Part shown: one piece after another, positions 3,418-13,677 of the stretch
How positions within the stretch are numbered: the first letter of the stretch is position 1
How the letters are laid out: the number at the start of each line of letters is the position of its first letter
DNA from: Reichenbachiella carrageenanivorans
Lineage (GTDB): Bacteria > Bacteroidota > Bacteroidia > Cytophagales > Cyclobacteriaceae
Assembly: GCF_025639805.1 (NCBI RefSeq)
Contig: NZ_CP106735.1
Location: 2,637,501-2,701,500 of the forward strand
Reading direction: 5' to 3'
Length of the DNA stretch: 64,000 nt
Made by a program: the position numbers and the translations under genes
The notes under the pieces: generated by a model
Seen by the model: only the letters and a program-made list of their open reading frames with translations
What the model was told of the DNA's origin: nothing
Database searches by the model: none

Positions 3418-4737
3418 ATGAAGCACTCCTCTAAACTCTCTCTGCGAAGAAGCATATATATTATATGCTTGTCGCTAATTGTACAATCATGTTTTTTTCA
3501 AAAAGATGAAGAGCCTCCCGATGATGACGGTGATGGAATCGAAAATGCAGTAGACAATTGCCCTGGACTACCCAATCCCGATCAGGCTGATGCCAATGAA
3601 GATGGTATCGGAGATGCTTGTGAAGGTGACATGGACGAAGATGGGGTGTTGGACTATCTGGACAATTGCCCTGAAACCGCCAATGAAGACCAGGCCGATT
3701 TTGATGGAGACGGTATCGGAGATCTCTGTGATGAGACTACGGTCACCGAAGACCAAGTCAATATCCAAAGCGCGCTAGATATTACTTTCAACAACATCAG
3801 GAATCTCAAAAATGGAGATGGTTTGGATGTGGTATTAGAAGATCTGATGGGATTTTCTAATGGAGAAATGGATGAAGAATTATGGGTAGATGCTTTGACG
3901 GCCAAACTAGGTGAGGCCCTAGGTTTAGACGAAGAAGGTGAGCAGGGTATCGACCTGAACCAAATGGGAGGGGTTTATACGTTCAAAAAGTCGGATAGTA
4001 CCTGGATCAAAAACAGCTCCTCTACGAGTGTACTCGAATTGAAATTTCCGACGGCACAGAACAAGACAACAGCCAATGGGCAATTGCTACTCGAAAACTA
4101 CAAGGATCAGACGCAGAGCCAAGCGGTAGGGGAGGAAAGTTATAAACTGCCTACGACTTTAGATCTGAGCCTGAGTGTGGATGGGGAGAAGGCTGTAGGT
4201 ATTTCCCTAAAGGAGATAGTCTATGGATCGGGGAGCTGGCCGATACCCCGTAAAGCAGATGTGGAGTTATTCATAGCACCCCATTCCCTGCATTTGGTGA
4301 TCGATAGCGAATCGGATACGAAGTACGATGTGGATCTGGATATATCTACCGAGGATGGTGATTCTTTTGGTGTCGGCATAGAGGTGGAGCTGGCTCACAA
4401 TGATTTTGAAAATATCGTGTTCGAAGAGGATATCAAAAAGCTTAAGGCTGAGATACGTTTGCAACACCTCACCATCGTGTCGGTGTCGGATCTAGCAGCT
4501 TTGATTGCTTTAGAAGACCCTACAGAAGCGCAAATCAATGAATTATTGGATTTGGATATTTTGATCAACGATATGAAAGTAGCAGATGTGAAGTTTAGCG
4601 AAAGCGAAGAGATCTTGTATCTCGTATTCAAAGACGATAGTAGCGAAGATGCATTCAATTATTTCGAGGACTTCTTCAACGATGTGCTCGCCATGGTAGA
4701 GGACTATACAGGAGATCTTTTTGCCGAAGAAGAATAA
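3418..4737 (+). CDS. Lipoprotein with thrombospondin type 3 Ca-binding repeats
   Basis: A 439-residue secreted lipoprotein. A basic N-terminus and hydrophobic stretch end in the lipobox IVQSC, making Cys25 the lipidated residue. Residues 33-105 carry aspartate-rich type 3 repeats (DDDGDGIENAVDNCP and DEDGVLDYLDNCP are examples), which bind Ca2+ and stiffen surface proteins. The remaining 330 residues are acidic, rich in beta-strand-like sequence and match no family I recognise. No type IX sorting domain is visible at the C-terminus, so it is more likely anchored by its lipid. It has its own likely promoter and a strong terminator, so it appears to be a single-gene unit. Function unknown. Confidence 0.8.
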   Translation: MKHSSKLSLRRSIYIICLSLIVQSCFFQKDEEPPDDDGDGIENAVDNCPGLPNPDQADANEDGIGDACEGDMDEDGVLDYLDNCPETANEDQADFDGDGIGDLCDETTVTEDQVNIQSALDITFNNIRNLKNGDGLDVVLEDLMGFSNGEMDEELWVDALTAKLGEALGLDEEGEQGIDLNQMGGVYTFKKSDSTWIKNSSSTSVLELKFPTAQNKTTANGQLLLENYKDQTQSQAVGEESYKLPTTLDLSLSVDGEKAVGISLKEIVYGSGSWPIPRKADVELFIAPHSLHLVIDSESDTKYDVDLDISTEDGDSFGVGIEVELAHNDFENIVFEEDIKKLKAEIRLQHLTIVSVSDLAALIALEDPTEAQINELLDLDILINDMKVADVKFSESEEILYLVFKDDSSEDAFNYFEDFFNDVLAMVEDYTGDLFAEEE

Positions 4738-5338: not shown

Positions 5339-5640
5339 TGGTATGTTTTTGTGAATCTAATCATTTTCAATCAGGATGGCCAATGGGATCGGTGAGGTCT
5401 CATCGCTGGTGCCTTGTCCTCAAGTCTCAGAATCTCATAAAATTTTTATTAAAACGTTGATTCGTTGGTTTTGCTGCGTGCCAGGGCTCGTTGTAGTATA
5501 GCTGATATTTGGAACTCAAATGACATGAGCTATTCTTGTTTAGCTGCTATTAGGTTATGAATAGCCAGATAGTTATTCTAATATTAATCTTTAATAAAAA
5601 CATAAGGGATATATCAACCACTGGTGTGTTATATTCGGAT
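5339..5640. other. Intergenic stretch without a gene
   Basis: About 300 bases with no supported reading frame on either strand. It contains a short inverted repeat, GCTATTC (5529-5535) with GAATAGC (5559-5565), and becomes AT-rich toward its right end, where the accessory region starts. I see no complete left partner for the cassette-type end at 5641, so if an attC-like site once preceded it, it is not recognisable. Confidence 0.6.
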
Positions 5641-5648
5641 GTTAGAGT
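5641..5648 (+). repeat. Cassette-type left end (R'-like box)
   Basis: GTTAGAGT here is the perfect reverse complement of ACTCTAAC at 6451-6458. The two boxes bracket the gene at 5667-6446 with only 18 and 4 bases of slack. This is the layout expected for an integron cassette, where the R' remnant precedes the gene and the complementary R'' follows it. Confidence 0.5.
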
Positions 5649-5666
5649 TAACTAGATTATATTAAT

Positions 5667-6446
5667 TTGTCTTTTTCCACCAAAATTTCGAAAGTAATTG
5701 AATCAGCGAAAATAGAGCTTATTCATCCCGTAATGGACTACATCAATGATGAGAATGAATATCGGAAATTTGTTTTCACCATTCTATTTAAGGTTACAAA
5801 CGGATTGGAAACTGTAAATACTCTTTATAGTCAACTCAACAATAAACCACAATTTTCCGATACGATTTTCATCTCTTTAAGAGCACTCTTGGCAGATAAG
5901 ATTACAATGGACTACCTACTCTTTAAATCTGATTTCAAGAACGAAAACGTACATGATAAGCTTGAGTGGTTAAAATATGACCACATTAAGTACACTCTAA
6001 ATAATTTGAAGATTTTTAAATCTATATACGAAACTGATGACAAGAAAATACAAGAGAAGAGAGATGATTTAAAATCAGCGTTTCCAAATTATTTTGATTC
6101 AGGTGGCAATCTGAAAAAACAATATGACAAACTGCCAACTATTGGACATATGGCAAAAGAAATTATTGCGGGTACACCCAATAATTCAAAATTTCAATCA
6201 CACCTAATCTTATCCTTTGAACATTATGATATTTATTCTAAATACGAACATCTAGGTCAGTTAACTCCATATCTAGTTTTTAGAGGGTATAAAGATCAAG
6301 AACAAGACTCCATATCAACTGAAATACAGAACTGCATAAAAATATTAGTAGATTTTATAGCAGACCTAATAACGGAATTCCATGAACCTGAATTTATTGA
6401 GCGTACTGACTACTGGACTAACATTAAAAAACTGACCTCAGATTAA
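5667..6446 (+). CDS. Hypothetical protein, weakly DUF5677-like
   Basis: A 259-residue, charged, AT-rich-coded protein with no signal peptide or membrane helix. It is predicted mostly helical. The segment IYSKYEHLGQLTPYL around residue 195 resembles the Y-K-x-L-S/E-x-x-H type motif of DUF5677 and related proteins of mobile regions, but I cannot confirm the family. The start is TTG at 5667: an in-frame TAG at 5652 lies just upstream and the next in-frame ATG is 22 codons in. It sits alone between complementary GTTAGAGT and ACTCTAAC boxes, so it looks like the first cargo gene of the cassette-like array. Confidence 0.7.
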   Translation: MSFSTKISKVIESAKIELIHPVMDYINDENEYRKFVFTILFKVTNGLETVNTLYSQLNNKPQFSDTIFISLRALLADKITMDYLLFKSDFKNENVHDKLEWLKYDHIKYTLNNLKIFKSIYETDDKKIQEKRDDLKSAFPNYFDSGGNLKKQYDKLPTIGHMAKEIIAGTPNNSKFQSHLILSFEHYDIYSKYEHLGQLTPYLVFRGYKDQEQDSISTEIQNCIKILVDFIADLITEFHEPEFIERTDYWTNIKKLTSD

Positions 6447-6450
6447 AATA

Positions 6451-6642
6451 ACTCTAACATGCTGTGATCAAATCATGGCGGTTCGGAGGTGAATGAAAGT
6501 TCTCTGTATTCTGGAAGCCCCGCATATCTCAGATTAGCTCTATGGAATCAAAAAGGAATAGCGCAAATCAGAGATTTGGCTATTTTGTTAAGGAAACATT
6601 ATCTTCACCAAAAGCCACGATTGATACAGTGGCGATAGCAAG
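6451..6642 (+). repeat. attC-like element E1
   Basis: About 190 bases between the gene ends. The outer left box is CTCTAAC (6452-6458). The left arm CTGTGATCAAATCATGGC (6462-6479) pairs with the right arm GCCACGATTGATACAGT (6614-6630) with a few bulges. The right end is GATAGCAAG (6634-6642). Inside is a perfect small hairpin CAAATC-AGA-GATTTG (6564-6578). It shares roughly 80% identity with E4 at 10264-10458, including the order of all inner motifs. The arm geometry is like an integron attC site, though longer than most. Confidence 0.6.
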
Positions 6643-6648
6643 AATACG

Positions 6649-7623
6649 ATGTACAATCCTGATAATAAGTACGAAATTGGAACTGAGTTTTTCTTGCTTT
6701 CATTTTTAGATCCATTTCAGATATTACATTCTGGTGATATCAAAGGATATATTGAAGAGCTAAAAGAAAACAACTCAAAAGATCAGAGCAATATTTATTT
6801 TATCCTTCGAAGACCAAAGATTTGCCTAATTCCTGAAAGTTTTAAAACACAAGGAACTTTGGTTTCAATGGATTTCGAAGTTTGGAATAAGCGAGATAGG
6901 CTAATTCTCACATCTCAGATGAACTTTCCAATGATGCAAGGTAAAATAAGTATGGAAAGTGAATATCCATTTACCAAATTCAAACTAGTAGACACTCAAG
7001 GAAATTCTATCTCGAGTAGACCCACTTCAATTATTGGCAACTCCAATCAAGAAATAGGGGAATTTCAATTCCTTTTGGATTATGAGATACTGTACATTGG
7101 TAAATCATATGGAACGGATGGGAATAGAAATTCCCTAGACAGACTAGTAAATCATGAAACCTATCAGCAGATTTTAACAGATTCTATGAACGACCACCCA
7201 GACAAAGAAGTCTTCGTTTTAATAGGAAACTTTGCTCAAAAGTATTTCATGGTGTCTTTGCCCTATGAACAATACCCAGAGAATGATAACGAAGAAATGC
7301 AGCAACATTTTTTCAATAATTCGGGGTTAAACATATCCGAAAGTCAACTTATCTCGGTTACAGAAGGGATGCTAATAAGGTATTTCAGCCCTGAGTACAA
7401 TGAAAAATTCAAAGAAATTTTCCCTTCAAAATCTCATGTTTCTTATTCGAAGCTATTTGATATGAACGTAAGGGCTCTCGCCTTAGAAGTTATCACTGGT
7501 CATGAGCAAACTAATTTCTTCACCAATAAGACTGGGCGATTAAAAAAACACTTCCAGAACTTTGAATTAGTGAAAACTGATGGGCGATTCAATATTTTCG
7601 AAATAGACAATTACTCTTGCTAA
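6649..7623 (+). CDS. GIY-YIG-like domain protein, function unknown
   Basis: A 324-residue soluble protein. Around residues 147-170 it has LYIGKSYGTDGNRNSLDRL followed by VNH, which resembles the YIG half of a GIY-YIG nuclease with its conserved R and H. Near residues 236-252 it has TEGMLIRYFSPEYNEKF, where E and N could be the family's metal-binding Glu and Asn. The N-terminal 140 residues match nothing I know. This would be a divergent GIY-YIG protein; activity is unproved. It sits between element E1 and E2, and its stop codon TAA lies inside the right-hand CTTGCTAAC box (7616-7624). That box is complementary at 8 of 9 positions to GATAGCAAG just before the gene. Confidence 0.65.
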   Translation: MYNPDNKYEIGTEFFLLSFLDPFQILHSGDIKGYIEELKENNSKDQSNIYFILRRPKICLIPESFKTQGTLVSMDFEVWNKRDRLILTSQMNFPMMQGKISMESEYPFTKFKLVDTQGNSISSRPTSIIGNSNQEIGEFQFLLDYEILYIGKSYGTDGNRNSLDRLVNHETYQQILTDSMNDHPDKEVFVLIGNFAQKYFMVSLPYEQYPENDNEEMQQHFFNNSGLNISESQLISVTEGMLIRYFSPEYNEKFKEIFPSKSHVSYSKLFDMNVRALALEVITGHEQTNFFTNKTGRLKKHFQNFELVKTDGRFNIFEIDNYSC

Positions 7624-7782
7624 CATATGCTATGAATGAATGGGGTTTCATGGGTCAGGATATTTTCGTGGGGATTGTGAAGTCCGCCACAAGTTTTAAA
7701 TTTAAATCAAGGTGTGGCTATGTGCGAGACGAGAGGTTAGTGCTTTCTAATCCCCACTCATTATAGCCGGGCGATATCTATG
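7616..7782 (+). repeat. attC-like element E2
   Basis: The left box CTTGCTAAC overlaps the end of the preceding gene. The left arm GCTATGAATGAATGGGG (7629-7645) pairs with CCCCACTCATTATAGC (7752-7767) with one bulge and a mismatch. A second left-arm candidate, GTGGGGATT, pairs perfectly with AATCCCCAC at 7748-7756, so alternative folds exist. The right end GATATCTATG (7773-7782) is complementary at 7 of 10 positions to CACAGCTAAC after the next gene. Confidence 0.55.
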
Positions 7783-7807
7783 ATTTTAAAAAGACGACCG
7801 TAAAAGA

Positions 7808-9037
7808 ATGAAGATAGCGATATTGACACTTGGAACTCGTGGAGACGTTCAACCTTATGCGGTTTTGGGACAGGCACTCAAACAACATGGACATCAAGTA
7901 ACTTTATCAACTGCCAAAAACTTTGAGCAACTTGTAAAATCTTATGACATTGACTTCGCCCCAGTAGAAGCAGACTTTCAAGAAATCTTAAACTCTGACG
8001 AAGGTAAAAAGATGATGAAAGGAAATCCTTTTGCTGTTAAGAGAAATCTAAATACTTGGGTTTATCCACTGATTACAAACTCGTTGACAGAGTTCTACAA
8101 ATTAGCAACGGAAAGCGACATTGTCCTTTATCACGTAAAGACATTGGCGGACAGTTTTGCCGACCAATTTCCGCACAAAATGATTAGAGCTAATGTTTTG
8201 CCTATCGTTGAGCCGACAAGTGAATTTGCAAATCCTGCATTTAGTGGTTTGCCAATACCAAGTTTTCTGAACAAACTGACATACAAATTTTCCAACCTGA
8301 GCATTAAACTTTTATCAAAGCCCATCGGACAATTTAGAGCAAAGTTTGATTTACCTAAAAAGTTTTCAGTTCCGACAGTGAAGAATATTTACGGAATAAG
8401 TTCTCATTTTTTATCAGTTCCGCAAGACTTTCCAGCTCATCCAAAATTCAAGGGATTTTGGTTTGGGACTTCATCAACTGAACTTACAACAGACCTGACA
8501 GACTTCATCAATACAGGAGAACCACCATTGCTATTGACATTTGGAAGTATGCCTTTTAAGAGCAAATTTGATTTGCAGACAGCCATTGTTAAGCTAACAG
8601 AACAATTTGACATAAGAATAATTGTAGTTAAAGGTTGGGGACTTGACCAAACCGAACGACTTGAAAACAATCCCAAGATTAAAGTAATTTCTTCTGCACC
8701 TTATGAAAAGTTATTTCCATTGACAAAGGCAATTATTCATCACGGTGGTATTGGGACAACCGCAGAATGTTTGAGAGCAGGAAAACCATTTCTAATTTGC
8801 CCAATTCTTTACCCTATTGGCGACCAACAATTTTGGGGACAACACGCTTACAAAAAAGGACTTGCAGTTAAACCGACATCCATCAGTAAAATGACAGAAA
8901 AGATATTTTTGCAAAGTATAAATGACCTTTTGACAAACAAGCAACTTTATGACAATGCAAAACAGATACAAAAATCAATTAACAACGAAAACGGACTTGA
9001 AAAAGCGATTAACGAAATAGAAAAAAACCACAGCTAA
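7808..9037 (+). CDS. GT1-family (UDP-glycosyltransferase / MGT type) glycosyltransferase
   Basis: A 409-residue GT-B enzyme that would move a sugar from an activated nucleotide donor to a lipid, sterol-like or small-molecule acceptor. The N-terminal motif MKIAILTLGTRGDVQPY is the hallmark of sterol glucosyltransferases and macrolide-type transferases. The donor-site signature HHGGIGTTAECLRAGKP lies near residues 312-330, followed by a D-Q pair (GDQQFWG). No membrane helices are present. It is a single-gene unit between repeats E2 and E3, and is AT-richer than core genes, consistent with recent acquisition. The acceptor cannot be told from the sequence. Confidence 0.85.
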   Translation: MKIAILTLGTRGDVQPYAVLGQALKQHGHQVTLSTAKNFEQLVKSYDIDFAPVEADFQEILNSDEGKKMMKGNPFAVKRNLNTWVYPLITNSLTEFYKLATESDIVLYHVKTLADSFADQFPHKMIRANVLPIVEPTSEFANPAFSGLPIPSFLNKLTYKFSNLSIKLLSKPIGQFRAKFDLPKKFSVPTVKNIYGISSHFLSVPQDFPAHPKFKGFWFGTSSTELTTDLTDFINTGEPPLLLTFGSMPFKSKFDLQTAIVKLTEQFDIRIIVVKGWGLDQTERLENNPKIKVISSAPYEKLFPLTKAIIHHGGIGTTAECLRAGKPFLICPILYPIGDQQFWGQHAYKKGLAVKPTSISKMTEKIFLQSINDLLTNKQLYDNAKQIQKSINNENGLEKAINEIEKNHS

Positions 9038-9166
9038 CAGCACCTACAAGAAATTGGCGATTCAGTGGTTAAATGAAGTTTTGTGCTTCGTATCAAGTGT
9101 AGTGCTGGCAGACAGTTTTGTGCTCCGAAATCGCCAACTTCTTGTAGGTGCAAAACGTTATATCAG
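9029..9166 (+). repeat. attC-like element E3 (best preserved)
   Basis: The left box AGCTAAC is at 9032-9038. The left arm (9040-9062) begins GCACCTACAAGAA and pairs with the right arm (9129-9151), which ends TTCTTGTAGGTGC. 22 of 23 positions match, with an A where the complement needs G. The right box GTTATAT follows at 9157-9163. The total length of about 130 bases and the order box-arm-loop-arm-box are those of large attC sites such as Vibrio cholerae repeats. The loop of about 66 bases holds two copies of TTTTGTGCT (9079-9087 and 9115-9123). Confidence 0.7.
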
Positions 9167-9193
9167 AAAGTCAGACTTTGAGTCAAATATCAG

Positions 9194-9664
9194 ATGAATA
9201 AAATCAATATAAAAAAGAAGCAAATCCTGCAAAGGAAAGGTAGCCTGCATAGTCAGGCATATATTGTAGAGTCTGGTTTACTCAGAAGTTATACCATTGA
9301 TAAAAATGGGAAAGAACATATTTTTATGTTCGGCCCTGAGGGTTGGATAGTTACCGACTATGCTGCCGCAGATGAACCTTGCGATTTGTACATTGATGCC
9401 TTAGAAGATTCCGTGGTTATACAAATAAAAAAAAACACTGAGTTAGAAATCGATCACAAAAAAATCATCAAGCGAATAAGGGTGTTGCAAAGAAGAGTTA
9501 TTATGCTCATGAGCGCATCTGCCATTGAACGCTACAACCACTTTGTTTCAACCTACCCTACTATTGTTCAAAGAGTACCTCAATACATGATTGCATCCTA
9601 TCTGGGGATTACCCCCGAAGCATTGAGTGCGGCTAAAAGTCAGCACCTTAAGCATCTAAAATAG
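9194..9664 (+). CDS. Crp/Fnr-family regulator, N-terminally truncated
   Basis: A 156-residue protein with the cyclic-nucleotide-binding beta-roll (region LRSYTIDKNGKEHIFMF) and a C-terminal helix-turn-helix around RVPQYMIASYLGITPEAL. Family members in Bacteroidota are about 190 residues; this one starts at the equivalent of residue 30 and lacks the first helix. An in-frame TGA lies just upstream of the ATG. In another frame, the bases before it encode TLSQISDE, which looks like the missing piece after a frameshift or deletion. The C-terminus (SAAKSQHLK) also departs from the usual S-R-I-R ending of the recognition helix. It is likely a decaying gene. It precedes DoxX and a pirin remnant, a common redox-stress trio. 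Confidence 0.7.
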   Translation: MNKINIKKKQILQRKGSLHSQAYIVESGLLRSYTIDKNGKEHIFMFGPEGWIVTDYAAADEPCDLYIDALEDSVVIQIKKNTELEIDHKKIIKRIRVLQRRVIMLMSASAIERYNHFVSTYPTIVQRVPQYMIASYLGITPEALSAAKSQHLKHLK

Positions 9665-9761
9665 TACAATCCGCTTTTCTTAATCTACATTAATGCACAG
9701 GCATTTTTTTCCACTGATCTTTGTATCGTAAATAAATTATTAACGATTAAAATCAGAAGAA

Positions 9762-10139
9762 ATGAATGTAATACTGTGGATAGTTCAAGGTCTATTGGCT
9801 CTCATGTTTTTAATGGCCGGAGCAATGAAGCTCAGCAAACCCAAAAAAGAGCTTCGCGAAAAACTAGGAGACTGGGTAGACCAATATTCCGACATAAGCA
9901 TCAAGTTAATAGGCCTTGCAGAATTACTAGGAGCTATAGGGCTCATCCTGCCCATGGCTATGGGTTTCTTTCCAATACTAACCCCTCTAGCTGCAATTGG
10001 GCTGGCTATGACCATGGTTGGGGCTATGAAAGTTCACTATCAACGAAAAGAAAAAAGCAAGGTGATAACAAACATAGTTTTGATGTTGCTCGCCTTATTT
10101 GTGGTGATTGGAAGGCTATACCTAGTGCCAATTATATAG
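9762..10139 (+). CDS. DoxX family membrane protein
   Basis: A 125-residue protein with four hydrophobic helices, the size and layout of the DoxX family. The first helix VQGLLALMFLMAGAMKL with the following K-P-K and the E-L-L-G-A-I-G-L motif in helix 2 are typical. DoxX proteins in Bacteroidota are often linked to redox and thiol stress and are commonly next to Crp-type regulators and pirins, as here. It is intact, unlike its two neighbours. The exact reaction is not known. Confidence 0.85.
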   Translation: MNVILWIVQGLLALMFLMAGAMKLSKPKKELREKLGDWVDQYSDISIKLIGLAELLGAIGLILPMAMGFFPILTPLAAIGLAMTMVGAMKVHYQRKEKSKVITNIVLMLLALFVVIGRLYLVPII

Positions 10140-10175
10140 ATAAATCTTAGAATTTGAACTCATAATCGGAAAATT

Positions 10176-10298
10176 ATGAAAGATAAAATTTTAGCAATAG
10201 AAGCGCTGCAAATGCCTTGGCGTACAGAAGATCCCTTTTTGTTTGCTGTACATCATTTGGATTCTGTAATCAAATCATGGCTGTTTAGTGGTAGATGA
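10176..10298 (+). pseudogene. Pirin gene fragment (5' end only)
   Basis: The first 30 codons (MKDKILAIEALQMPWRTEDP, then FLFAVHHLDS) are the N-terminus of a pirin-family cupin of about 290 residues. At about base 10264 the homology stops and the sequence becomes the interior of repeat E4, which adds ten foreign codons before TGA at 10296-10298. No pirin sequence is found after the repeat or beyond the helicase gene. The 3' nine-tenths of the gene has therefore been lost by a deletion or recombination ending inside the repeat. Too short to encode a working pirin. Confidence 0.85.
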
Positions 10299-10458
10299 AA
10301 GTTCTCTGCATTCTGGAAGCCACGCCATATCTCAGGTTAGCTCTACGGAATTGAAAAAGGGATAGGCTACGTGCCTCGGCACAAATCAGAGATTTGGCTA
10401 TCTTGTAGCCGAAACTTAAACTGAATCACACGCCACGGATGATATGGAGGTTAGCGGT
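10264..10458 (+). repeat. attC-like element E4, left end lost
   Basis: About 80% identical to E1 from CTGT(A/G)ATCAAATCATGGC onward. The left arm AATCAAATCATGGC (10268-10281) pairs imperfectly with GCCACGGATGATAT (10432-10445). Inside are CAAATC-AGA-GATTTG (10382-10396), a GTGCC-TC-GGCAC hairpin and a GGCTAC/GTAGCC pair. The right box GTTAGCGGT (10450-10458) is a perfect reverse complement of ACCGCTAAC at 13068-13076 after the helicase gene. The expected left R''-type box is missing, because the element is fused directly to the pirin fragment. Confidence 0.6.
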
Positions 10459-10505
10459 CACTTTAGAGGGTTTTCAGAGAAATCAGCAAAAATCATTATC
10501 GAAAA

Positions 10506-13067
10506 ATGTCGCTTAAAAGAGAACTGATATACATTGACGAAAAAGACGAAACTGATAGAATTGCTGAGTATTCGTATCAAGGCGACAAAATAAGAATCGT
10601 TTTCAAAAACACGACCAAGGAGTTCTTATATGGCAGGGAGAGAGCAAGAATCGTGAGAACGGCTGTTAGCAGTGACAAAGCATTTAATGTTTTCAATTAC
10701 CTAAAAGAAATCGCTGAAACAGTTGGTCTAAAAACAGAAGAAGGCAACAATATACTCGCAAGAAGTTATGACAGCATTGCTGCAATTCCCGAGGATTGTG
10801 TGCTTGAGGTTTTTTTAAACCATTCTTTATCTGCACCAAAAGGAAAAAGTACAAATCCGGGTTTTTTCCCTTTTGGCTTCAATCTAAGCCAACGAAAGGC
10901 CGTGAATACTGCCTTTTCCAATAAGCTAAGTGTAATTGAAGGCCCTCCAGGGACAGGCAAAACACAAACCATTTTGAACATCATTGCTAATGCCATTTTG
11001 AATGAGCAAAGTGTAGCAGTAGTTTCAAGTAATAACTCAGCTACCAAGAATGTTTATGAAAAGCTTGAGAAGAACGGGGTTGAATTTATTGCAGCACTTC
11101 TTGGAAATTCTCGAAACAAAAAGGAGTTCATTGATTCTCAAAAGGCAATTCCTGATTTGTCGGAATTCCATTTGGGTGATGAAGAAAAAACTAACTTGAA
11201 AGAAAAGGCAACAACGCTTATTGCTGAGCTCTCTGGAAATCTTCATAAGAAAAATGAGTTGGCTTTATTAAGACTTCAACTTGAAAATTTTGAAACAGAA
11301 TACGAGCATTTCAAAGAAACTTATAAAGACAAAGCCAAGAAAGTAGTAGCCTTTAAAAGGGCAATTACAGTAGACAATATTCTTCAGCTTTGGATAAAAC
11401 TTGAAGCCTTCGGTAATAGAAAAAGGAAAATCGGATTCATCAAAAGATTAATTTTTCGCTTGAAATACGGAATTAAGGATAAATCATTCTATACCAATTC
11501 ACTTGGTGAAATGATTTACATCTGTCAGTCCAAGTATTATCCAACCAAGATTAGTGAACTGATAGAGAAAATAGGATCATTGGAAATCTCTTTAAGGTAT
11601 TTTTCATTTAATAACAAAATGAAAGAATACACAGAAACGTCAATGCAACTTCTTAAAGCGGAGTTGTGTGAGCGATACAATAATCAAAAACGTGAACCAT
11701 ACACAATTCAAGAGCTTCGCATTAAGTCAGACAAATTCATCAAAGATTACCCTATCATAATGAGTACAACTTACTCATTACGACAAAGTTTATCAGACAA
11801 TATTTCTTACGATTATGTAATCATTGACGAATCTTCACAAGTAGATTTAGCGACAGGCGCACTGGCTTTTTCATGCGCAAAACGAGCGGTAATTGTTGGC
11901 GATACTAAGCAACTGCCAAACGTCGTGGATGCTGACATGCAGGAGAAAACTAATATGGTTTTCAATTCATACGAACTGCAAGAACCTTATCGCTATTCAA
12001 ATCACAGTTTGCTATCATCTCTCATTGAATTGTTTCCCAATGTTCCTAAGACACTATTAAGAGAACATTATAGGTGTCACCCCAAAATCATAGAATTCTG
12101 TAACAAGAAATTCTATGATAATCAACTTATTGTTCACACAAAATACTCAGAAAAACGCCAACCTCTTGTCGTTTATAAAACGGTTCAGGGAAATCACGCA
12201 AGAGAGCGAATGAATCAACGGCAAATAGACATTATAAAAAATGAAATCATTCCAAAAGAGGGACTTGAAAATGTGGATTTAGGTATTGTTACTCCATATC
12301 GCAATCAAACCAATGCATTGCAGATGGCATTTCAAGGAACTTCAATTAAGTCTGATACAGTAGATAAGTTTCAAGGCAGAGAAAATGAAGTCATAATACT
12401 TTCAACTGTTGATAATAATATTTCAGAATTTACGGATAATCCTAATCGCTTAAATGTAGCAGTTTCCAGAGCTATTGATCAATTGATCGTAGTTGTCAAT
12501 GGAAATGACAATGAAAGCGACAACAACATTTCTGATTTAATAAAATACATTGAGTATAATAACTTCTCTATTGTTCAAAGTGAGTTAAGTTCAATTTTCG
12601 ATTTGCTCTATAGAGGCTATGAAGAAGAACGATCAAAGATTCTTAGAAAATCAGGTAAGATTTCGGAGTTTGACAGTGAGAATTTAATGTTTGGTTTGAT
12701 CAAACAAGTTTTAGCCGAAGACCAATTTCTGAAGTACGACACACTCCCACACTTTCCCTTAAGACAACTCTTTATGGATTTCTCGAGATTGAACGAACAA
12801 GAAGCAAAATACGCTTCAAACCCACTGACGCACTTAGACTTTTTGATATACAACAAGCTTAGTAAAGTTCCTGTACTCGGAATAGAAGTTGATGGCTTTA
12901 AATTTCATAAACGAGGAACTAAGCAAGCCGAAAGAGACAAACTGAAAGACCAAATATTGAAAGAGTACAACTTCCCAATCTTGCGCTTTAGAACAAATGA
13001 AAGCAACGAAAAGGAAAGATTGAGAAATAAAATAATTGAACTACAAACCCAGAAGGAATTGTGGTAA
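10506..13067 (+). CDS. SF1 DNA2/NAM7-like helicase with C-terminal DUF2726/REase-like nuclease domain
   Basis: An 853-residue protein. Motif I GPPGTGKTQTILNIIANAI lies near residue 150, preceded by the Q-motif-like FNLSQRKAV. Motif II is DYVIIDESSQVDL near 437, motif III VGDTKQLPNVV near 462, and motifs V-VI DKFQGRENEVIILS and NRLNVAVSRA near 620-655. About 170 residues separate motif Ia from motif II and carry the helical insert. The C-terminal 90 residues contain LDFLIYNKLSKVPVLGIEVDG and an ILRFRT strand, the D...ExD/K pattern of DUF2726 or Vsr-like PD-(D/E)XK nucleases. Such helicase-nuclease fusions are frequent in defence islands. It is bounded by a perfect 9-base inverted repeat (10450-10458, 13068-13076), so it looks like one cassette. 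Its role in defence is an inference. Confidence 0.88.
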   Translation: MSLKRELIYIDEKDETDRIAEYSYQGDKIRIVFKNTTKEFLYGRERARIVRTAVSSDKAFNVFNYLKEIAETVGLKTEEGNNILARSYDSIAAIPEDCVLEVFLNHSLSAPKGKSTNPGFFPFGFNLSQRKAVNTAFSNKLSVIEGPPGTGKTQTILNIIANAILNEQSVAVVSSNNSATKNVYEKLEKNGVEFIAALLGNSRNKKEFIDSQKAIPDLSEFHLGDEEKTNLKEKATTLIAELSGNLHKKNELALLRLQLENFETEYEHFKETYKDKAKKVVAFKRAITVDNILQLWIKLEAFGNRKRKIGFIKRLIFRLKYGIKDKSFYTNSLGEMIYICQSKYYPTKISELIEKIGSLEISLRYFSFNNKMKEYTETSMQLLKAELCERYNNQKREPYTIQELRIKSDKFIKDYPIIMSTTYSLRQSLSDNISYDYVIIDESSQVDLATGALAFSCAKRAVIVGDTKQLPNVVDADMQEKTNMVFNSYELQEPYRYSNHSLLSSLIELFPNVPKTLLREHYRCHPKIIEFCNKKFYDNQLIVHTKYSEKRQPLVVYKTVQGNHARERMNQRQIDIIKNEIIPKEGLENVDLGIVTPYRNQTNALQMAFQGTSIKSDTVDKFQGRENEVIILSTVDNNISEFTDNPNRLNVAVSRAIDQLIVVVNGNDNESDNNISDLIKYIEYNNFSIVQSELSSIFDLLYRGYEEERSKILRKSGKISEFDSENLMFGLIKQVLAEDQFLKYDTLPHFPLRQLFMDFSRLNEQEAKYASNPLTHLDFLIYNKLSKVPVLGIEVDGFKFHKRGTKQAERDKLKDQILKEYNFPILRFRTNESNEKERLRNKIIELQTQKELW

Positions 13068-13115
13068 ACCGCTAACAAATAATATAGCACATACCTCTAT
13101 TGAGCTACTTGTAAC
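13068..13115 (+). repeat. Truncated attC-like end (E5)
   Basis: ACCGCTAAC starts right at the helicase stop and is followed by AAATAATATAGCACATACC, which would be the left arm of an attC-like site. I find no matching right arm or GTTAG box before the next gene at 13168. The array appears to end in a broken site here. Confidence 0.4.
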
Positions 13116-13167: not shown

Positions 13168-13677
13168 ATGGAAATTTTAAAAGTCGCCCAAGAGTGGGCC
13201 AAAGCGGAGGTTTTCTCTACACGATTCTTTATCATATTCGCTATTTTATTTTTAGCTGCAAGTGTAGGTTTTTGGCAACTCGGCAAAACCGAATTAGCCA
13301 AGGCTTATATTATCCCGATGCTGGTAGCAGGTTTATTACTTATGACAATAGGACTTGGTTTGTTTTTCACCAACAAGTCAAGAATCACCCAATTTGAAAA
13401 AGCGTACCATCAGGATGCTGCTGCTTTTGCAGACTCAGAAATCACTCGTGCCGAAGGTACTTTGAAAGAATACACGGTGGTTTTCAAGGTAGTCCCAACC
13501 ATTATCGTTGTAGCGGCCTTATTGATTATTTTCATCAACACGCCAACTTGGCGAGCTATTGGTATCACTACGATTGCCATGATGATTATAATTTTATTGG
13601 TTGATGGTACGGCTCATGCCAGAATTGAAGCTTATTATAAGCAGTTGATCACTGTAGTAAGGCAAGGTGGCAACTAA
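13168..13677 (+). CDS. Hypothetical four-helix membrane protein
   Basis: A 169-residue protein with four predicted membrane helices at about 21-41, 48-68, 107-125 and 130-147, and charged termini. The loop after helix 2 is rich in A, D and E. Proteins like this are common in Bacteroidota, but I know no function. It lies immediately after the cassette-like array, with base composition closer to the core genome, so it is probably the first resident gene on the right flank. The next gene starts 192 bases later; that gap holds no recognised feature. Confidence 0.75.
   Translation: MEILKVAQEWAKAEVFSTRFFIIFAILFLAASVGFWQLGKTELAKAYIIPMLVAGLLLMTIGLGLFFTNKSRITQFEKAYHQDAAAFADSEITRAEGTLKEYTVVFKVVPTIIVVAALLIIFINTPTWRAIGITTIAMMIIILLVDGTAHARIEAYYKQLITVVRQGGN

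Follow-up and report, generated by a model that had tools for sequence, protein, structure and literature searches.

A cassette array in the window

The window analysed here, 64,000 nucleotides at positions 2,637,501-2,701,500 of the 4.81 Mb single contig of the Reichenbachiella carrageenanivorans genome, holds an array of same-strand genes that spans window positions 5566-13076: an attI-like site comes first and is followed by five units with attC-like hairpins between them (Table 1). The first-pass annotation, made from the letters of this stretch, had described an integron-like cassette array without an integrase, and what it reported is present where it had placed it: five units on one strand, and long imperfect inverted repeats at four places (E1 to E4).

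Table 1. Parts of the array, in window positions
Feature	Position	Strand	Observation
attI-like site with trace of integrase gene 3' end	5566..5644	+	63/79 identical, 3 gaps, against L009:7194-7269
Cassette 1: gene 5667-6446 (259 aa) and hairpin E1	5641..6634	+	box 10/10
E1, attC-like hairpin	6449..6642	+	further genome copies; compensated pairs
Cassette 2: gene 6649-7623 (324 aa)	6634..7773	+	box 9/10, GAT for GTT
E2, attC-like hairpin	7616..7782	+	further copies in own genome
Cassette 3: gene 7808-9037, macrolide-type family glycosyltransferase	7773..9157	+	Pfam PF03033; box 7/10
E3, attC-like hairpin, 23-nt arms	9029..9166	+	96% complementary (repeat search); fold z -3.8
Cassette 4: CRP-like regulator 9194-9664, DoxX_2 protein 9762-10139	9157..10450	+	Pfam
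E4, E1-family hairpin without left end	10261..10458	+	E1 query match, 75%, genome 2647761-2647944
Cassette 5: gene 10506-13067, superfamily 1 helicase with DUF2726 end	10450..13076	+	Pfam AAA_11/AAA_12/DUF2726; box 9/10

The annotation also claimed that the R' box at the start of a unit and the R'' box at its end are complementary, and this logic was borne out by recounting over 10 letters, which gave 10/10 at 5641/6458, 9/10 at 6634/7624, 7/10 at 7773/9038 and 9/10 at 10450/13076. R'' overlaps the stop codon of the gene in cassette 2, and occupies 13068-13076 in cassette 5. No pair can be tested in the unit 9157-10450, since E4 starts without its left end, the R'' box; a short open stretch (10176-10262) continues directly into the shortened E4, and cassette 4 is therefore probably a fusion that followed a deletion. 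Taken alone, the boxes of the window are weak evidence for cassettes, since 212 of the 28,925 GTT..AAC pairs in the window match at 8/9 or better.

Among the hairpins of the window, only E3 folds clearly better than shuffles as a single sequence, the z values of E1, E2 and E4 being -1.6, -0.6 and -0.4. The array stands above chance through the copies of E1 and E2, covarying stem pairs and the box rule in chains of 19 and 23 cassettes in relatives. At E<=1e-9 the E1 query matched the genome in 14 places, of which 12 are distinct from itself and E4, and the E2 query found 5 places, 4 besides itself, with E2-like sites also in Reichenbachiella faecimaris (locus L038) and in the genome labelled G068; the E3 query matched only itself in its own genome. 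Double compensation was observed at 8 of 29 predicted pairs among 13 sites of one array, and at 8 of 34 among 10 E1-family sites of two genomes. A strict hairpin scan, which found only E3 and missed bulged sites, was dropped in favour of a gapped scan with shuffles.

An intact platform in the same genome and arrays in relatives

An intact tyrosine recombinase gene is located at genome positions 4,798,786-4,799,991 (L009:6051-7256), 2.16 Mb from the window; the recombinase is 392-401 aa long. The end of this gene and the next nine bases read GGATATATCAACCACTAGTGTGTGATATCCGGAT, followed by GTT, and a near-identical string stands just before cassette 1 of the window. The match reaches back into the end of the recombinase gene, as the reference segment L009:7194-7269 comprises its last codons together with attI. 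Because the string matches the intact gene end plus attI, the array of the window is headed by an attI-like site whose integrase gene has been lost. The annotation was right that no integrase gene lies in the array, although it missed the attI-like site with the 3' trace at its head, and an integrase of the matching kind resides at 4.80 Mb.

On the 3' side of the intact gene, we found four E1 and two E2 copies in a row, and a chain of six cassettes whose hairpin families are shared with the window. One cassette of the 4.80 Mb array is exactly duplicated from G^TT to G^TT, and cassette A, with a gene for 205 aa, occurs three times in the genome, its identity starting and stopping at GTT each time. 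The complete platform of this genome and of relatives has a gene for a Xer-type tyrosine recombinase, whose 3' end carries an attI-like site, and then same-strand cassettes that each end in an attC-like hairpin; the cassettes start with GTT-R-N5 and finish with the complement before AAC, and several are exact duplicates from GTT to GTT. The same genome also has equal-scoring copies of another tyrosine recombinase at 4736741 and 4744366 (L007 and L008), 7.6 kb apart, and further short enzymes of this type at 244 and 1683 kb.

Relatives of the recombinase stand at the head of arrays in other Bacteroidota too. At least 565 of them were confirmed in named genomes, and the loci of the best 80 were analysed. 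Counting boxes without hairpins proved too noisy (39 GTT/AAC pairs in 79 kb of G068, against a mean of 14.0 and a maximum of 22 in shuffles), which was solved by a chain rule that follows boxes and hairpins step by step, with GTT only in the search for long chains. Starting from the GTT of attI in the 54 loci with at least 1.5 kb downstream, we obtained chains of at least two cassettes in 33, at least three in 23 and at least five in 14, whereas no chain of two or more arose in 72 upstream control windows. The chain has 23 cassettes in G028, all six-of-six, and 19 cassettes over 19 kb in G068 (18 six-of-six, one five-of-six), where not one step arose from 60 starts chosen at random within 40 kb of that chromosome; L166 and L165 yielded 10 and 6. 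In a wider clade of paralogs, represented by 8 loci, G096 has nine cassettes, G015 five, G082 three and G077 two.

Hairpins with AAC/GTT ends number 247 in 386 kb downstream of the recombinase genes, or 6.4 per 10 kb against 1.9 in shuffles, and 116 in 724 kb upstream, where the density of 1.6 equals that of shuffles. Full complementarity over the six variable letters was seen for 60 of 182 pairs of consecutive sites, and for 11 of 872 non-consecutive pairs of the same loci. In 47 of the 77 loci that were long enough (3 of the 80 being too short), the gene is followed by a palindrome whose end lies no more than 14 bases from a GTT, in contrast to 2/225 upstream segments and 0/77 shuffles. Contigs break within 2 kb downstream at 31 of 80 loci and upstream at 4, as expected of repeats, and 29 of 41 long-enough loci have direct repeats on the downstream side. 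Among within-locus duplicates of at least 380 bases and at least 99% identity, taken from the best 45 of 60 by identity, 7/10 have a GTT within 9 bases of both ends.

The weak boxes of the window, and the folding of E2 and E4 no better than shuffles, would suit a collection of ordinary accessory genes between dispersed repeats, REP-like elements or terminators, with boxes that match by chance. This explanation is refuted by the long chains and retains hardly any credibility: 19 and 23 box matches follow one another, exact duplications run from GTT to GTT, and attI and a recombinase stand at the array starts. The order of the parts, their boundaries, boxes and hairpins, and the exact duplications are direct observations. 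We conclude that the window very probably holds a decayed platform, now without its integrase, that belongs to an integron-like system for gene capture in Bacteroidota, run by a Xer-type integrase.

Several observations weigh against this conclusion. Within the window, E1 and E2 carry GAT where GTT is expected, the box of cassette 3 matches at only 7/10, cassette 4 lacks R'', and no repeat was found after the R'' of cassette 5, where the last hairpin is missing. A chain rule that accepts GTT or GAT follows the array for two true steps and then takes a spurious one from 7782; E3 was reached separately. From the GAT boxes, the 7/10 pair, and the absent R'' and final hairpin it follows that the window array is damaged. 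GAT in place of GTT is seen in R' at window 6634 and 7773, and also in E1-family copies at 2785 and 4398 kb of the genome. Both the attI of the intact gene and that of the window fail the strict palindrome test. Among relatives, 21 of the 54 testable loci lack a chain of two, L163 (G007) gave none, and of the 8 paralog loci G020, G091 and G063 have no chain and G085 a single step. Direct repeats are found upstream as well, in 22 of 75 loci, and 3/10 of the within-locus duplicates lack GTT at one end or both. Recombination itself is read from its traces in the DNA, namely the exact duplicates.

A comparison of gene order with relatives, as the annotation had proposed, located the flank gene 13168-13677 in 4/8 genomes, one of them weakly, but the flanks are not syntenic. 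The three clear cases show no other window gene at that place, hence no empty site, which also counts against the conclusion; the exception is a 25% match, in G068, to the histidine kinase of the window. For the flank gene 3418-4737, we observed weak matches in 3/8 genomes (best E 2.4e-15; in G007, 29% over residues 180-336).

The recombinase and the proposed reaction

Judged from profile, tree and fold comparisons, the recombinase is of the Xer type and not IntI. It passes the Xer model NF040815 with 222.3 bits over residues 120-382 (cut-off 220), and its closest folds are 4a8e and 5hxy. The IntI model TIGR02249 is matched in pieces, at best with 105 bits in the genome search and 193.4 for the whole protein, against a cut-off of 265; model positions 179-239, and residues 180-244 of the IntI4 structure 2a3v, are left unmatched. 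Canonical integrons have a tyrosine recombinase with an IntI-specific domain near patch III. The IntI insert of about 37 residues is absent in 18/18 rows of the recombinase family and present in 11/11 IntI rows. In a tree of 45 rows, built with a program warning about long branches that concerned other rows, the recombinase falls outside the IntI clade (support 100/99) and within its own family (95/98). Compared with IntI, it has an additional N-terminal domain; this domain alone had no Foldseek match at E<=0.001 and a weak XPB-like match on a second look, and the search with the whole model gave nothing on it.

These data bear on whether the array of the window could be a remnant of a canonical integron, i.e. 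a cluster of true attC sites lacking integrase (CALIN) whose IntI acts in trans or has been lost. The cassette logic, the hairpins and attI match those of integrons, true IntI over the cut-off occurs in 84 of 296 genomes sampled from the phylum (all but one in other classes), and Bacteroidota are among the phyla listed with integrons in one account (PMC8618304). However, the search for IntI that the annotation had called for found no protein over the cut-off in the own genome, where the integrase is of another kind, and 1/198 genomes sampled from the class have one; arrays begin at the 3' end of a recombinase that is not IntI. The canonical R boxes follow the rule GTTRRRY / RYYYAAC, which 16 of 19 boxes in G068 violate; the remaining 3 fit, and 19/19 cassette starts carry A or G as their fourth letter, as counted by eye. 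A canonical remnant is thus highly improbable: the array of cassettes is confirmed, while attC sites in the strict sense, and a CALIN, are not established.

Concerning the reaction, we propose that the recombinase would cut cassettes out as circles and insert them at attI. Both variable boxes of a cassette would derive from one site and hence stay complementary. One strand of the folded hairpin would be read, and the longer spacer, on the GTT side, would identify this strand. The cassettes of the window would have been captured likewise before the integrase gene was lost, and any movement that they still make would rely on the intact recombinase at 4.80 Mb.

The use of folded single strands seems rather probable to us. 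The GTT-side spacer is longer than the AAC-side spacer in 148 of 158 chained sites, shorter in 8 and equal in 2, where the search admitted up to 11 on the GTT side and 9 on the other, i.e. a slightly wider GTT side. The longer spacer might serve as a strand mark in analogy to the extrahelical bases of attC. The I2 region, or its helix, has been credited with letting IntI read folded single strands (PMC7790495), and a survey of tyrosine recombinases describes the insertion as not fully conserved in an integron-like subgroup yet calls it essential (PMC8138268). The recombinase has no I2 region, which speaks against single-strand use; either its role is taken over by a different part, perhaps the N-terminal domain, or the reaction takes place on double strands.

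The latter alternative supposes cassette recombination of the Xer/dif type, with the hairpins serving for paired binding or for stopping transcription, and not as folded single strands. It would agree with a Xer-like recombinase that passes NF040815 without the IntI insert, and with an attI that is often a near-perfect palindrome, reminiscent of dif sites. The compensated pairs, however, are not confined to the ends but extend through the inner stems, and the spacer asymmetry recurs at many loci, as would be predicted for the reading of one folded strand. On balance, we consider double-stranded recombination unlikely, though of the alternatives it deserves the most weight.

A broader proposal, to which we give slightly less than even odds, is that integron function may have arisen a second time: a Xer-type recombinase without I2 but with an XPB/HARP-like N-terminal domain, directed at distorted DNA, would recombine single-stranded hairpins at a palindromic attI, constituting a platform of Bacteroidia that is missed by software requiring IntI and would be the source of tet(X3) in Acinetobacter plasmids. 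If hairpins are indeed recombined without I2, the idea of I2 as the key step (PMC7790495) becomes directly testable in a natural system.

Relation to known systems, distribution and tet(X3)

The system most likely works like an integron, although it is not one by the IntI definition. It shares with sedentary chromosomal integrons the integrase gene with attI beside it, the same-strand array with hairpins after the genes, the GTT boundaries, the complementary boxes at cassette ends and duplicated cassettes. It differs in that the integrase lacks the IntI insert, lies outside the IntI clade and bears the additional N-terminal domain; it also points along the array, a palindromic attI frequently lies at the 3' end of its gene, and the variable box consists of GTTR and about five free letters. 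Transcription of the integrase in the direction of the cassettes has been described in chromosomal integrons of Treponema, which, unlike the present system, have an intI gene (PMC3607928). The closest family model and folds are those of Xer/XerA; unlike Xer with dif, the recombinase here heads cassette arrays.

A match to the recombinase at E<=1e-40 is present in 71 of 98 genomes sampled from the family, reaching at least 415 bits in 17, and at E<=1e-100 in 7 of 198 genomes of the class. IntI is nearly absent from the class sample, yet arrays of the same logic adjoin a different recombinase. An account by the authors of IntegronFinder names one complete integron in Bacteroidetes proper, that of Salinibacter (PMC9024848), and integron searches, as described for the two-profile rule of that program, rely on a domain specific to IntI (PMC9668308). 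We found no description of such a system among the open-access titles and abstract starts listed; with subscription journals and preprints outside this scope, one may be in print. Phage matches were confined to two records of one phage, with a partial match. One genome, G085, has 18 matches at E<=1e-40, mostly recombinases of 280 aa from the paralog group. On a Chryseobacterium plasmid (NZ_CP041688.1, L188), a distant relative annotated as 'integron integrase' is followed by same-strand small genes, with two chain steps.

Integrons spread antibiotic resistance, and the matches on plasmids lead to a resistance gene. Acinetobacter accounts for 24 of 33 plasmid records that match the recombinase, and these matches include a 221-aa fragment named TnpF or xerD that adjoins tet(X3), about 190 bases before it in both records opened (one from Acinetobacter, and pHH1107). 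The fragment is a recombinase shortened on its 5' side, and groups with the paralogs G082, G085 and G020 (support 97/85). G082 heads a chain of three steps and G085 one step; G020 has none on its short contig, and G096, near-identical to it in the sequence after the gene, has nine cassettes.

On the Acinetobacter plasmid NZ_CP041297.1 (L186:4043-6100) and in L187, the shortened relative, an attI-like palindrome and a cassette-type start, GTTATGTGCC, precede tet(X3). The strings between fragment and gene, TATACGCCATTTGGCGTATA and GTTATGTGCCATT, are arranged as attI and the start of a cassette would be, and the stretch from fragment to tet(X3) is found at 99% identity or more in 50 plasmid records, 49 of them from Acinetobacter. 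Here the unit departs from the arrays: behind tet(X3) stands a hairpin that is broken off. What follows the gene, GGCTACTAAC, pairs at 7/10 as an R'' candidate, a weak match by eye with the rest of the hairpin cut off, and a box scan around tet(X3) (5 leading or 8/9 letters) gave no good pair. Judging by this layout, tet(X3) is likely a cassette of the system. One report leaves open the role of 'xerD' beside tet(X) genes (PMC7473080), for which the arrays offer a concrete reading, and another proposes the group that holds them as the source of tet(X) (PMC7494873).

Turning to the remaining genes of the window array, the products of cassettes 1 and 2 had no match in Pfam, NCBIfam or PADLOC searches (E<=0.001 for cassette 1), and the glycosyltransferase of cassette 3 scores 65.6 bits with the NCBIfam MGT model, far under its curated cut-off of 260. 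Rfam reported tRNA outside the array and, inside it, one microRNA match at chance level (E<=1). The helicase of cassette 5 matches parts of the defence-system helicases MkoC, MkoA, PDC-S37 and Hhe, and is possibly encoded by an anti-phage gene.

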